A stretch of 64,000 bases of DNA from Aerolutibacter ruishenii (GTDB lineage Bacteria > Pseudomonadota > Gammaproteobacteria > Xanthomonadales > Xanthomonadaceae). Positions 10,932-16,475 of the stretch are shown here, in pieces (within the stretch, counting starts at the first letter, position 1; each line of letters opens with the position of its first letter). The position numbers and the translations under genes are program-made. The stretch is from contig NZ_VLKP01000011.1 of the NCBI RefSeq assembly GCF_007830115.1, positions 62,001 through 126,000 of the forward strand. The letters are read 5' to 3'. The notes under the pieces were generated by a model. That model searched no databases, was not told the origin of the DNA, and saw only the letters and a program-made list of their open reading frames with translations.

Positions 10932-11954
10932 TCAGAACGCCGCGTCGAACGCCACCTCGCCTTCCACCCCCACCTGGTAGGCCGAGACCCGCCGTTCGAA
11001 GAAGTTGGTCACCTCCTGCACGTCCTGCAGGTCCATGAACGCGAACGGGTTGCTGGCGCCAAAGTGTTTGGCCAGGCCCAGCTGCGCCAGACGCTGGTCG
11101 GCGCAGTACTGCAGGTACTGGCGCATGTCGCGCGGCGACAGGCCGGCCACGCCGCCGGACAGCACGTCCTCGGCGAACTGCATCTCGCACTCCACCGCCT
11201 CTTCCAGCATCCGCATCACCAGCCCTTGCAGTTCCTCGTCGAACAGGCCGGGCTCCTCGACGCGCGCGGTGCGGATCACCTCGAAGGCGAAGGCCATGTG
11301 GCAGCTCTCGTCGCGGAATACCCAGTTGGTGCCGGAGGCCAGGCCGTGCAGCAGCCCACGCGAGCGCAGGTAGTACACGTAGGCGAAGGCGGCGAAGAAG
11401 AACAGGCCCTCGATGCAGCAGGCGAAGCAGATCAGGTTGAGCAGGAACTGGCGGCGCTGCTCGCGCGTCTCGACCCGCTTGAGGCCTTGGATGGAGTCAA
11501 TCCACTTGAAGCAGAACGCGGCCTTGGTGCGGATCGAGGGGATGTTCTCCACCGCGGCGAATGCCTTGGCGCGCGCGACCGGATCGGGCAGGTAGGTGTC
11601 GAGCAGGGTGAGGTAGAACTGCACGTGCAGCGCTTCCTCGTACAGCTGGCGCGACAGGTACATGCGCGCCTCGGGCGCATTGATGTGCTGGTACAGGTTC
11701 AGCACCAGGTTGTTGGCCACGATGCTGTCGCCGGTGGCGAAGAACGCCACCAGCCGCTCGATCAGGTGGCGTTCGGCCGGTCCGAGCTTGTGTTTGAGGT
11801 CGTTGACGTCCAGCGAGAAGTCGACCTCCTCCACGGTCCAGGTGTTGCGGATCGCGTCGCGATACATCTCGTAGAACTGCGGGTAGCGCATCGGCCGCAG
11901 GGTCAGGTCGAAGCCGGGGTCGAGCAGGCGCGGGGCAGTGGGCTGAGCGGACAT
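10932..11954 (-). CDS. nrdB: Class Ia ribonucleotide reductase, beta (radical) subunit
   Basis: 340 residues. The di-iron ligands can be placed: Asp in EEVDFSLDVND, Glu107 and His110 in YEEALH, Glu and His in IEGLFFFAAF and RDESCHMAF. Tyr114, four residues after His110 as in the E. coli enzyme, is the expected tyrosyl radical. The subunit makes and stores the radical used by NrdA. It needs oxygen and iron or manganese and is B12-independent. The start follows AAGGAACGCCC. The gene lies 85 bp downstream of nrdA and is probably transcribed with it from the riboswitch-controlled promoter near 15104. Confidence 0.97.
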   Translation of the reverse strand: MSAQPTAPRLLDPGFDLTLRPMRYPQFYEMYRDAIRNTWTVEEVDFSLDVNDLKHKLGPAERHLIERLVAFFATGDSIVANNLVLNLYQHINAPEARMYLSRQLYEEALHVQFYLTLLDTYLPDPVARAKAFAAVENIPSIRTKAAFCFKWIDSIQGLKRVETREQRRQFLLNLICFACCIEGLFFFAAFAYVYYLRSRGLLHGLASGTNWVFRDESCHMAFAFEVIRTARVEEPGLFDEELQGLVMRMLEEAVECEMQFAEDVLSGGVAGLSPRDMRQYLQYCADQRLAQLGLAKHFGASNPFAFMDLQDVQEVTNFFERRVSAYQVGVEGEVAFDAAF

Positions 11955-12039: not shown

Positions 12040-14628
12040 CTACTGGCAGGCATCGCAGGCTTCCGGGTTCTCCAGCGAGCAGGCCACGGCTTCGCCCGGG
12101 GTGTACTCCGGCGTGGGCGCGGCGGTGCCCGCGCTGCTCACCGTGGTCTTGGCGATGCGCGTGGCCGGACGCGAGCGCAGGTAGTAGGTGGTCTTCAGCC
12201 CCTGCTTCCACGCGTACATGTACATCGAGGACAGCTGGCCGATGTTCGGGCTCTCGATGAACAGGTTCAGCGACTGGCTCTGGTCGATGAACGCGCCACG
12301 CTCGGCGGCCATGTCGATCAGCGAGCGCATCGGCAGTTCCCATGCGGTGCGATAGACATTGCGCAGCGATTCGGGAATGGCGTCCACGCCCTGGATCGAG
12401 CCTTCGGCCACTTTGATCGCATCACGCAGTTCCGGCGTCCACAGGCCCAGTACCTTCAGTTCCTGCACCAGGTAGCGGTTCACCACCAGGAAGTCGCCCG
12501 ACAGCGTTTCGCGCTTGAACAGGTTGGACACCTGCGGCTCGATGCATTCGTAGCAGCCCGCAATCGAGGCGATCGTGGCGGTCGGCGCGATCGCGATCAG
12601 CAGCGAGTTGCGCAGGCCGTGCGCCTTGACCCGCGCGCGCAGGCCGTCCCAGTCCAGTGCGGTGTCCGGTGCCCCGCCCCATGCATCGAACTGCAGCTCC
12701 CCCTGCGAGGCACGGGTGTCGCCGAAGCCCGGGTGTGCCCCGTGTTCCAGCGCCAGCTCGTTCGATGCCGTCAACGCGTGGAAGTAGATCGTCTCGGCGA
12801 TATCGCGCGACAGCTTGCGCGCCGCGGCCGAATCGAATGGCAGGCGCAGCTTGAAGAACACGTCCTGCAGGCCCATCGTGCCCAGGCCCACCGGGCGCCA
12901 CTTCAGGTTGGCATTGCGCGCGGTGTCGATCGGGTAGAAGTTCAGGTCGATGACCCGGTCGAGCTGACGCACGGCCAGGCGCACCGTCTCGGCCAGCTTT
13001 TCGAAGTCGAAGACACCCGCGACGCGCTGGCCGGTGGCATCGTCCACGGGGCCCTGGGTTGCGTTGCCGGTGTCGTCGGCAAACAGGACCACGTGGTGCG
13101 AAAGATTGATCGAGCCAAGGTTGCAGACCGCGGTCTCGTCCTGCGAGGTCACCTCCAGGATCTCGGTGCACAGGTTGGACAGGTGCACCACGTTGCCGTC
13201 GCGCAGGGTCTGGTTGCACGCGCGGTTGGACTTGTCCTTGAAGTTCATCCAGCCGTTGCCGGTCTGCGCGAGCGTGCGCATCATGCGCGCGTACAGCTCG
13301 CGCGCCTTGACCTGCTTTACCGCTTGTCCCGCCTTTTCGGCGGAACGGTAGGCCTGGTCGAAGGCGTGGCCCCACAGGTCCGTCAGCTGCGGCACCTTGT
13401 GCGGGTCGAACAGCGACCACAGGCCATCGGCCTCGACCCGGCGCATGAACTCGTCCGGGATCCAGTTGGCGAGGTTGAGGTTGTGGGTGCGCCGCGCCTC
13501 GTCACCGGTGTTGTCGCGCAGTTCGAGGAACTCCTCCACGTCTGCGTGCCACGGTTCCAGGTATACGCAGGCCGCGCCCTTGCGCTTGCCACCCTGGTTC
13601 ACTGCCGCCACCGACGAATCCAGCGTCTTCAGCCACGGCACGATGCCGTTGCTCAGGCCGTTGGTGCTGCGGATCAGCGAGCCGCGCGAGCGGATGCGCG
13701 TGTACGACAGGCCGATGCCACCGCTGAACTTGCTCAGCTTGGCCACGTCCATGTAGCGCTTGTAGATGCTCTCCAGCGAGTCCTCGGGCGAGTCCAGCAG
13801 GAAGCAGCTGGACAGCTGCTCATGCGTGGTGCCGGCGTTGAACAGCGTGGGTGAGCTGGGGATGTAATCCAACTGCGCCATGCGCCGGTACAGCGCCAGG
13901 GCGTCGCCGACGTCGGCGCTGAGCGCGCACGCGATGCGCAGGAAGAACTGCTGCGGCGTCTCCATCACCGTGCGCAAGGTAGGGTGGCGCAGCAGGTAGC
14001 GGTCGTAGAGGGTGCGCAGGCCGAAGTAGTCGAACAGGCGGTTGAGCGTCGGATCGATGGCGTCGTTGAGCTTGCGCGAATTCGCCTGCACGAAGGCCAG
14101 CAGACGGTCGTTGATCAGTCCCAGTTCGTGGCCGTACTGCACCGACTGCGAGAATGCGTGGATCTCCAGTCCGGCGACTTCCTTTTCGATCACCTGTGCC
14201 AGCAGACGCGCGGCCAGGCGGCCGTATTCGGGCTCCTCGGCAGTGAGCAGTGCAGCCGTGCGGATCGACAACTCGTCCAGTTCGCGGGTGCTGGCACCGT
14301 CATACAGGCCGCTGATGGTGCGGGTGGCCACGCGCATCGGATCAACCGCATGCAGGCCGTCGCAGTTGCGTGCCACCGCACGCACGATCTTGTTCAGGTC
14401 CACTGGTTCGCGGTGGCCGCTGCGTTTGGTCACCGCCATGCTGAAGGCGGTGGCCGGCGGGGTCAGGGCGAAGTCGCGGGTGCTGGTGGCGGCCGCCGCA
14501 TCGTGGACGCGGATCGAGGGCGCTTCGACGCTGGCGGCGTTGCCGCTGGCCAGCTCGGTGGCGCGGTCGTTGGCCGTGTGGTCGGTGGCTTGGTTGACGA
14601 TGACGACGTCGGGCGGGGAAACAGTCAT
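12040..14628 (-). CDS. nrdA: Class Ia ribonucleotide reductase, alpha (catalytic) subunit
   Basis: 862 residues. An Ala/Thr-rich N-terminal tail of about 63 residues precedes an ATP-cone (about 64-155), the allosteric activity site sensing ATP/dATP. Catalytic residues are visible: the cysteine in [12 protein letters not shown], the Asn-Cys-Glu triad in LSNLCTEI, and the partner cysteine in [10 protein letters not shown]. The C-terminal ACDACQ carries the CXXC pair that is re-reduced by thioredoxin or glutaredoxin. The ATG start was chosen because GGAG precedes it by 8 nt and because the upstream open frame is riboswitch leader. The enzyme reduces ribonucleoside diphosphates for DNA synthesis. 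Confidence 0.97.
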
Positions 14629-14932
14629 GGCGTGGCTCCGGTGCATGGGCGCACGGTTGTCGTCCTCTCCCACGGAGGGCGGCACACGGGAGCAAGGACG
14701 GCAGTCGACGGCCACCGCAATGCGGCGCCGACAGCACGACCAACGCCCCCGCGGGCGGGCAATCCACAGGCTGCTACGGAGGTGTCGCGCGGACCGGGAC
14801 GGATCCTGCCGTGCATCGCGCCGCAGGGCGTCGACGCATGGCAACCGCTGCGGCTGCCCGCGCGGCGCGACACCGACCGTCCTCCCCCGAGGACTCCCTG
14901 GCCGGTCACCGCGCGGTGTGCTTCGCGCGGCT
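14629..14932 (-). promoter_or_regulatory. nrdAB mRNA leader between riboswitch and start codon
   Basis: About 300 nt of leader separate the cobalamin aptamer from nrdA. It is GC-rich, carries no convincing gene, and presumably holds the expression platform. Several GC hairpins can be drawn, but I could not pick out one terminator or one element sequestering the ribosome site without folding software. Confidence 0.5.
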
Positions 14933-15084
14933 GTCGGCAGGTCTTCGGGCTCGGGACACGACGCCGTGCGTCACCTACTGGCGGTCGCTTCCCGGGCCAG
15001 GAGGCCCAGTGCCAAGACCGCGGTCGTTTCCCATACCGCTGCGGGGCAGCGCCGGCATCTCACCGGCTTCCCTTTTCAGCCGAC
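14933..15084 (-). promoter_or_regulatory. Cobalamin (AdoCbl) riboswitch upstream of nrdAB
   Basis: Read on the minus strand, this holds the conserved parts of the B12 element in order: GTCGGC closing strand of P1, the core GGGAAGCCGGTGAGATGCCG, the GCGCTGCCCCGCAGCGG segment that replaces the usual CCCGCNACTGT region, a variable arm, then GAGCCCGAAGACCTGCC and the pairing GCCGAC. B12 elements normally switch off expression when adenosylcobalamin is high. In front of nrdAB this would repress the B12-independent reductase when B12 is available, as known for Streptomyces nrdABS, and predicts a class II NrdJ elsewhere in the genome. Confidence 0.92.
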
Positions 15085-15106
15085 CCGCGAGGATCGGCAC
15101 CGACGA

Positions 15107-15153
15107 CCACAAGATATCGAGTTTTCTTGTCCAGTCAACACCAAATGTTGGGT
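15107..15153 (-). promoter_or_regulatory. nrdAB promoter overlapped by two NrdR-like boxes
   Basis: On the minus strand TTGACT (15138-15133) and TATCTT (15116-15111) form a sigma70-type promoter with a 16-bp spacer and start point near 15104. Two sites resembling the NrdR consensus ACACWATATWTWGTGT cover it: 15107-15122 (core CACAAGATATCGAG) and 15138-15153 (ACACCAAATGTTGGGT). Their centres are 31 bp apart, three helical turns, the spacing typical of NrdR box pairs. NrdR is the ATP/dATP-sensing repressor of ribonucleotide reductase genes. The riboswitch begins about 20 nt downstream of the start point. Confidence 0.75.
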
Positions 15154-15206
15154 GTCCGTGCGCGACCCTCGTGGCGCAATGGTTTGCACCCATCGGGGTG
15201 CCTCGT

Positions 15207-15235
15207 TTGCCCCCGGACAGGCCGGGCGGGACAAT
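15207..15235 (+). promoter_or_regulatory. Candidate pgk promoter
   Basis: TTGCCC (15207-15212) and GACAAT (15230-15235) are spaced by 17 bp, each matching the sigma70 consensus at 4 of 6 positions, 67 bp before pgk. The region 15154-15206 between this and the nrdAB control sites shows nothing else. Confidence 0.35.
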
Positions 15236-15302
15236 AACCGGCTCGGCGCCGATCGCCCGGATCGTGCCGCGCCCCATCCCCATCGCCCCAATGGAACCGA
15301 CC

Positions 15303-16475
15303 ATGTCCATCGTCCGCATGACCGACCTCGATCTCGCCGGCAAGCGCGTGCTGATCCGCGAAGACCTCAATGTCCCCATCGAGGACGGCCGCATCACCTC
15401 CGAGCAGCGCATCACCGCCTCGCTGCCCACCATGCGACTGGCGTTGGAGAAGGGGGCCGCCGTGATGGTGACCTCGCACCTGGGCCGCCCGAAGGAAGGC
15501 GTATGGTCGGAAGCCGATTCGCTGGCGCCGGTGGCCAAGCGCCTGTCCGAGCTGCTGGGCATCGACGTGCCGCTGGTCAAGGACTGGGTCGATGGCGTCG
15601 AAGTCGCGCCGGGCCAGCTGGTGCTGCTGGAAAACTGCCGCATGAACGTCGGCGAGAAGGCCGATGACGAGGGCCTGTCGAAGAAGTACGCCGCGCTGTG
15701 CGATGTGTTTGTCATGGACGCCTTCGGCACTGCGCACCGCGCGCAGGCCTCCACCCACGGTGCGATCCGCTTCGCCAAGGTCGCGGCCGGCGGCCCGCTG
15801 CTGATGGCCGAGCTCGACGCGCTGGCCAAGGCGCTGGAGCACCCGGCGCGGCCGCTGCTGGCGATTGTCGCGGGCAGCAAGGTCAGTACCAAGCTGGAGT
15901 TGCTGTCGTCGCTGGTGGGCAAGGTCGACCAGCTGATCGTCGGTGGCGGCATCGCCAACACCTTCATCGCGGCGATGGGGCACTCGGTCGGCAAGTCGCT
16001 GGTGGAGATGGACCTGCTCGATACCGCGAAGCAGATCATGGCCGACGCCAGGGCCCGTGGCGCCGACATCCCGGTGCCGACCGACGTGGTCGTGGCGCCG
16101 GCCTTCGCCGCCGATGCGCCGGCCACGGTCAAGGCCGTGGACGCGGTGGGCGCCGACGACATGATCCTCGACATCGGCCCGGATACCGCGGCTGCCTATG
16201 CCGCGCTGATCGCCAAGGCGGGCACGGTGGTGTGGAACGGTCCGGTGGGCGTGTTCGAGTTTGACGCGTTCGGCAAGGGCACCGAGGCGCTGGCGCGCGC
16301 GATCGCGGCGTCGCAGGCGTTCTCCATCGCCGGTGGCGGCGACACCCTGGCCGCGGTGGACAAGTACGGCATCGAGCGCGACGTGTCCTACATCTCCACC
16401 GGCGGCGGTGCGTTCCTGGAATTCCTGGAAGGCAAGGAACTGCCCGCGGTCACCGCGCTCAAGGCGCGCGGCTGA
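15303..16475 (+). CDS. pgk: Phosphoglycerate kinase
   Basis: 390 residues, normal size. The N-domain signature [20 protein letters not shown] with the substrate-binding basic residues, and the C-domain nucleotide motifs [20 protein letters not shown] and the final GGGDTLAAV are all present. It makes ATP from 1,3-bisphosphoglycerate in glycolysis. The start ATG begins MSIVRMTDL as in close relatives; an in-frame ATG 12 nt upstream is possible. The gene is divergent from nrdAB and followed by a HAD phosphatase gene 89 bp downstream. Confidence 0.97.

Follow-up and report, generated by a model that had tools for sequence, protein, structure and literature searches.

The window, by which we mean the whole 64,000-nucleotide stretch of Aerolutibacter ruishenii DNA analysed here, carries on its minus strand the two genes of a class I ribonucleotide reductase (RNR), nrdA and nrdB, preceded by a promoter and a long leader that begins with a cobalamin riboswitch aptamer. 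In the direction of transcription, the features are as follows.

15138..15155, minus strand: NrdR-like box 1 (ACACCCAACATTTGGTGT), overlapping the -35 element; position kept in relatives
15111..15138, minus strand: promoter TTGACT-16-TATCTT, no other promoter-like site in 14500-15400 (0.1 expected from shuffles)
15107..15124, minus strand: NrdR-like box 2 (AAACTCGATATCTTGTGG), overlapping the -10 element; consensus in relatives CCCCa.TAT.TTGtG
14919..15119, minus strand: cobalamin riboswitch aptamer, full-length RF00174 by covariance model (G000:C11:76919-77119 in the genome)
14909..14930, minus strand: hairpin right after P1, CCGCGCG-AAGCACAC-CGCGCGG, at the place of P13 in known cobalamin riboswitches; 7 of 7 pairs changed on both sides in 33 leaders, 89.9% of cells paired
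14879..14894, minus strand: second conserved hairpin, GUCCUC-GGGG-GAGGAC; 5 of 6 pairs changed on both sides, 83.2% of cells paired
14636..14639, minus strand: Shine-Dalgarno sequence GGAG of nrdA, read upstream of the ATG at 14628
12040..14628, minus strand: nrdA, class I RNR large subunit, 862 aa (TIGR02506 709.2, PF02867 646.3, PF03477 38.6 bits)
10932..11954, minus strand: nrdB, small subunit, about 340 aa from its likely start (PF00268 270.2 bits; open frame from 12053)

The Rfam covariance model RF00174 matched positions 15119-14919 of the minus strand over its full length (model positions 1-189) with 113.6 bits against a cut-off of 31.5 (E 1e-27), and it was the only Rfam family above its cut-off within the 64 kb window; 291 nt separate the end of the match from the start codon of nrdA. 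A first-pass annotation of this DNA had proposed a cobalamin riboswitch upstream of class I nrdAB, and this observation is confirmed with a score far over threshold and with nrdA and nrdB, class I by the family models, downstream on the same strand. The span given there, 14933-15084, lies within the RF00174 match but misses its 5′ part and its ends, and it came without a strand.

According to the family models, NrdA consists of an ATP cone and the barrel domain (scored over the open frame that already begins at 14844, upstream of the ATG at 14628). Its top match among solved structures was 5d1y (646.9 bits), which we take to be the human enzyme, and its closest named relatives are mostly Lysobacter proteins (top 86%). 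In NrdB, the tyrosine of the motif EEALHVQFY aligned with a tyrosine of 3hf1, presumably human p53R2, in what we take to be the column of the radical tyrosine. The NrdA and NrdB families together with this tyrosine are those of a class I (tyrosyl radical) RNR, provided that this column is indeed that of the radical.

The -10 element puts the likely transcription start near 15104, close to the P1 strand. The promoter is overlapped by two palindromic NrdR-like boxes whose centres lie 31 bp apart and which are named for their likeness to the NrdR box consensus. NrdR typically acts on pairs of boxes that are spaced by about three helical turns within a promoter, and sets initiation by nucleotide level; the nrdABS operon of Streptomyces is among those under NrdR control. 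Searching for NrdR boxes with a generic palindrome pattern yielded fewer matches than expected by chance, with no match at the promoter; the boxes were called from position, spacing and conservation. When 62 leaders were searched (five rows of the distant family f8 were left out), 56 had a promoter of the sought pattern, and the consensus of the 46 leaders of the window NrdA type was caC.AcAT.T.GtGTTGACg...cc....aaCCCCa.TAT.TTGtG.ccgtc, in which the hexamers are conserved through row selection, whereas the surrounding box letters were not so selected. The genome encodes NrdR (TIGR00244 190.3 bits, cut-off 124.65), and one similar box, CCCACTACATCTTGTGG, precedes nrdJ. The paired boxes are thus candidate NrdR control sites of nrdAB initiation.

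The leader between aptamer and nrdA is itself structured. A structure was drawn by eye for the leader of the window in an alignment of 33 leaders, and 14 of its 18 pairs changed on both sides; the shuffle mean was 6.6, none of 500 shuffles reached 14, and versions slid along the alignment reached at most 11. Such a long conserved leader might be taken to mean that a decayed, non-functional aptamer has simply been kept within it. We consider this explanation extremely unlikely, because decayed leaders give no match over threshold while the window gives a full-length one of 113.6 bits.

Between the B12 box and the start codon lie 99 to 317 nt, as measured in the 33 leaders for which an ATG or GTG start was called. 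We found no minus-strand terminator-like site in 14500-15400, and only 5 of 34 leaders have a TTTT in the interval from B12 box to start codon, so that intrinsic termination is disfavoured. RNAalifold placed no pairs in the start-codon region. With the bound state approximated by folding only the part after P13, predicted accessibility of the Shine-Dalgarno sequence hardly differed between the modelled states (0.29 versus 0.23, p 0.053, 28 leaders) and that of the start codon did not differ (p 0.58, 28 leaders); neither single-leader folding nor RNAalifold nor the accessibility comparison picked out a mechanism for the expression platform. A block following the binding of adenosylcobalamin (AdoCbl) would be translational or Rho-dependent. 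On visual inspection, the nrdA start is often shortly preceded by a small hairpin that has a loop similar to CGAGGGA and resembles an RsmA/CsrA site (14706-14626 in the window and the same place in 32 relatives).

The A. ruishenii genome (3.36 Mb, 28 contigs) has two cobalamin riboswitches, one at nrdA and one ahead of btuB. The first-pass annotation had predicted nrdJ and B12 uptake elsewhere in the genome, and both are present: nrdJ at C1:378486-380126 (TIGR02504 587.5 bits, cut-off 399.95), and btuB (TIGR01779 737.5 bits), which stands under the second riboswitch and near late corrinoid salvage genes on the same strand (adenosyltransferase, CobB, CobD, CobQ, CobU, CobT and CbiB). CobJ, the one early corrin gene sought, scored 46.8 bits, far below its cut-off of 246.35, hence the corrin ring is probably not made and the organism would depend on outside corrinoids. 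Downstream of nrdJ, a small protein matched the C-terminal part of a B12-dependent RNR model with 50.5 bits, below the model cut-off, and a few kilobases away lie arsJ and its partner glyceraldehyde-3-phosphate dehydrogenase gene (L006:2600-5033). With class I nrdAB downstream of the switch and NrdJ in the same genome, the layout is that of a B12-repressed isozyme.

We surveyed 71 genomes of the family and 48 of the order for RNR large subunits and riboswitches, taking PF02867 scores above 500 bits as class I NrdA and scores of 405-441 bits as NrdJ and deciding other scores case by case. In the family, 51 of the 71 genomes, at least 90% complete and with an NrdA above 500 bits, were scored; dropped were seven genomes less than 90% complete (G007, G014, G023, G024, G030, G041, G047), 12 with no NrdA above 500 bits (G003, G005, G013, G025, G033, G034, G036, G049, G054, G056, G060, G067) and G065, whose switch lies ahead of an NrdA fragment. 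Family riboswitches were read among the matches listed, of at least 52.9 bits, and by a laxer search where needed. In the order, 15 of 48 genomes were scored, with the switch position read from coordinates; dropped were G085 (fragments), G075, whose contig ends at the expected riboswitch place and has no match there, and 31 without an NrdA above 500 bits, including G076 and G103.

Riboswitch and class II enzyme occurred together. All 45 family genomes with NrdA and NrdJ had a riboswitch at nrdA, and it was found in none of the six without NrdJ (G017, G018, G044, G053, G063, G070; Fisher p 5.6e-8, kinship ignored). One candidate exception with NrdJ and apparently no switch, G019, was discarded when the laxer search gave an nrdA riboswitch of 50.4 bits. 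Elsewhere in the order, the riboswitch was present in 10 of 10 genomes with NrdA and an NrdJ of the usual score (G071, G072, G074, G081, G082, G090, G098, G105, G111, G117), and five genomes of f8 had NrdA and no switch. Three of these five (G077, G095, G108) have a single RNR large subunit each; the second RNR of G114 is class II (TIGR02504 522.2 bits, cut-off 399.95), and that of G102, with a PF02867 score of 319.5 bits like that of G114, was counted as class II by likeness. Pooled over the whole order, the switch was present in 55 of 57 genomes with a class II enzyme and in 0 of 9 without one (kinship ignored); a lack of nrdJ, which the first-pass annotation had named as speaking against its reading, thus went with a lack of the nrdA riboswitch in all nine scored cases. 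Among the matches listed, none of 59 NrdJ genes had a riboswitch within 2.5 kb upstream.

A second sample, 50 of 80 named loci that were checked for NrdJ, overlaps the genome survey and is not independent of it. NrdJ was over the cut-off in 34 of them, 33 with a riboswitch (26 by motif, 7 by Rfam); of the 16 others, 14 belong to Stenotrophomonas, and their loci contained no riboswitch (for L066, no more than 613 upstream bases were available).

Several records depart from this pattern. Stenotrophomonas sp. ISL-67 (L071) has NrdJ and no switch at nrdA, and G034 has a class II enzyme, an nrdAB of the E. coli type and no switch. Conversely, a switch was seen with no NrdJ detected in the incomplete, unscored genomes G007 (72%), G024 (83%) and G030 (87%), and the metagenome-assembled L078 has the riboswitch motif and an NrdJ under the cut-off in two frames. 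A Lysobacter-type nrdA with riboswitch motif, and NrdJ not over the cut-off, also appears in the record of the cyanobacterium Tolypothrix campylonemoides VB511288 (L047), where the contig is probably contamination. Two assignments were revised on closer classification: the RNRs of G005 (371 bits) and G096 (368 bits), taken as switch-free class I candidates, were shown to be second class II enzymes, and of the 155-bit second matches in Stenotrophomonas, taken as class II candidates, the one classified (G154, L141) was class I of the PRK09209 type.

A few class II loci were of unusual build. The G114 enzyme (L137:2717-5272) has 851 aa with a Cys-rich tail in the same chain, and NrdJ is one long frame with an insert in its middle in ISL-67 (L071, L140) and L. 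concretionis (L050, G130), of 1162 and 1223 aa, respectively; the ISL-67 insert reads like an intein after NPC, and that of L. concretionis is suggested by a split match. In L138 (G074), nrdJ lies about 4.5 kb downstream of the riboswitch and nrdA on the same strand, placing both enzymes in one locus. In the myxobacterium Archangium lansinium (L103), a cobalamin riboswitch of 100.8 bits accompanies an nrdA that is Lysobacter-like (72% identity), and NrdJ is present as well, which suggests that switch and enzyme were transferred together.

The absence of the switch where NrdJ is missing would be explained if B12 otherwise shut off the sole reductase, while a class II enzyme without the switch is viable, as the genomes with NrdJ or another class II enzyme and no switch show. 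If this were an ON switch, or if nrdAB were tuned for some other reason, the link to NrdJ could be an indirect one through general B12 use; G114 and ISL-67, which have a class II enzyme yet no switch, would agree with this, and the OFF direction is something we infer. Against it, all six NrdJ-less family genomes keep cobalamin riboswitches elsewhere, so that B12 use alone fails to explain the switch at nrdA, and the nrdAB and nrdDG cases described in the available extracts of PMC4991794, PMC3848588 and PMC545781 are B12-repressed or predicted to be so. We therefore judge an ON switch or another purpose quite improbable and retain repression by B12.

Kinship was addressed on an NrdA tree of 67 rows (66 genomes), made by a quick method and limited by long branches, on which the class II state changed 8 times and the switch state 7 times. 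It holds eight independent pairs, of which six were concordant, none opposed and two without a switch change (sign test p 0.031); without f8, there were 6 and 6 changes and 6 of 6 pairs were concordant. The genomes are related, the sign test comes down to six informative pairs, and two further pairs changed their class II state without the switch, all of which would suit a history in which NrdJ and switch were inherited jointly and lost jointly by chance in a few clades, as would the quality of the tree. This history is nevertheless unlikely, given six concordant changes and no opposed one, the neighbours G029/G070 and G002/G053 included, and given that aptamer remnants turn up in at least two parts of the tree. 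The functional link between NrdJ and the switch thus remains the preferred reading.

To detect these remnants, we compared the stretch after the promoter with the part from B12 box to hairpin in seven intact leaders, using 200 dinucleotide-preserving shuffles per tested leader as background. The comparison covered 22 riboswitch-less leaders drawn from two sets between which duplicates are possible. Nine of the 22 scored above all 200 shuffles, eight with scores of 32-45 (G017, G063, L061, L071, L072, L073, L074, L076) and G053 weakly with 25.5; G044 was borderline (1 of 200 shuffles), and the test gave no remnant signal in the other 12 (G018, both of G070, L058, L059, L063-L069). Twenty control stretches from elsewhere in the window scored at most 24.0. 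In the Stenotrophomonas leaders L072-L074 and L076 (L073 S. rhizophila, L074 S. bentonitica), the promoter, the 5′ strand of P1, a mutated B12 box and both hairpins are kept and the aptamer core is gone; 'remnant' here refers to the aptamer only, as the hairpins after it may be kept for another role. Records labelled S. maltophilia are split, L072 with a remnant and L058, L059, L064 and L067 without. ISL-67 has the same deletion despite its NrdJ, and therefore either the aptamer was lost first or NrdJ was regained in that lineage.

The switch was also found in front of different enzymes. Ten NrdA rows form a distant class I group, on a branch of at least 7.28 from the rest, whose one classified member, G006, matched PRK09209 with 1283 bits; six of the ten rows have the riboswitch. 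In an aptamer tree that left out G117, L024 and leaders without a clear motif, the six aptamers of this PRK09209-like group nest inside the window type and apart from three riboswitches not at nrdA, with weak support in places. G028 and G069, of one genus, have different enzymes behind the switch and partly shared flanks, and G059 and G010 have no clear shared flank, so that the case for in-place enzyme replacement rests on the aptamer tree and the G028/G069 flanks. A third class I subfamily, PRK09102, lies behind the switch in G076, and G103 looks the same by coordinates. We see about an even chance that the promoter-riboswitch leader, which stands in front of three class I subfamilies, is a unit that outlives its enzyme, with the enzyme of the PRK09209-like group seemingly swapped in under a resident switch, and that upon loss of NrdJ the aptamer was repeatedly purged, leaving remnants, as B12 became a poison.

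The interpretation of the first-pass annotation, a B12 switch on a B12-independent RNR with NrdJ as partner, is supported. We hold it very probable that the nrdAB mRNA begins with an AdoCbl-type riboswitch through which B12 turns nrdAB down and lets NrdJ take over, with NrdR separately controlling initiation. With B12 present and in its adenosylated form, the aptamer would fold and nrdAB would be turned down, and NrdJ, the AdoCbl-dependent class II enzyme, would then supply deoxyribonucleotides; when B12 is scarce, nrdAB would be expressed. NrdR binding at the paired promoter boxes would set nrdAB initiation separately, with one similar box at nrdJ. Should NrdJ be lost and the switch kept, B12 would shut off the sole reductase and stop DNA synthesis, which is the likely selective reason for losing the aptamer. 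The family provides a natural experiment on why one enzyme should be guarded by a switch sensing the cofactor of another. If the reading is true, loss of NrdJ with an intact switch amounts to a B12-triggered growth arrest, riboswitch remnants reveal in which order the losses took place, riboswitch decay can be followed through a family of which many members have been sequenced, and sequence alone predicts which members B12 should inhibit after deletion of nrdJ.

A B12-independent RNR under a B12 switch is an already known arrangement, to which the Lysobacteraceae case and an evolutionary test, both sequence-based, would be added here; NrdDG, one of the enzymes so controlled, is class III. Among the matches listed in the open-licence literature, no title or abstract opening dealt with this switch in Lysobacteraceae or with cobalamin riboswitch remnants, and the founding surveys may include it. 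The available parts of PMC545781 formulate a rule by which B12 elements control B12-independent RNRs where NrdJ is also present, PMC3766115 has a category 'isozymes of B12-dependent enzymes', with 'nrd' absent from the main text in the portion available, and excerpts of PMC9600662 treat the L5-L13 kissing loop and isozyme repression. The delta-proteobacterial cases resemble the window in that a B12-independent RNR stands under a B12 element in a genome with NrdJ, and differ in that this RNR is NrdDG rather than class I (PMC545781, in the same parts). In Propionibacterium acnes, riboswitches with nrd-boxes precede nrdAB and nrdDG according to the sections of PMC3848588 available; as in the window, nrdAB there combines a cobalamin riboswitch with an NrdR box and nrdJ lacks a riboswitch, whereas its nrdAB has a single box and RNA-seq data fitting early termination, compared with a box pair and no visible terminator here. 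The arrangement had also been described in the first-pass annotation as known in Streptomyces, which agrees with PMC4991794, an extract of which, citing Borovok 2006, places nrdABS under a cobalamin riboswitch. That operon is likewise a class Ia RNR operon with a class II partner, but it belongs to another phylum, and in the window the leader continues for about 290 nt beyond the aptamer and contains covarying hairpins.
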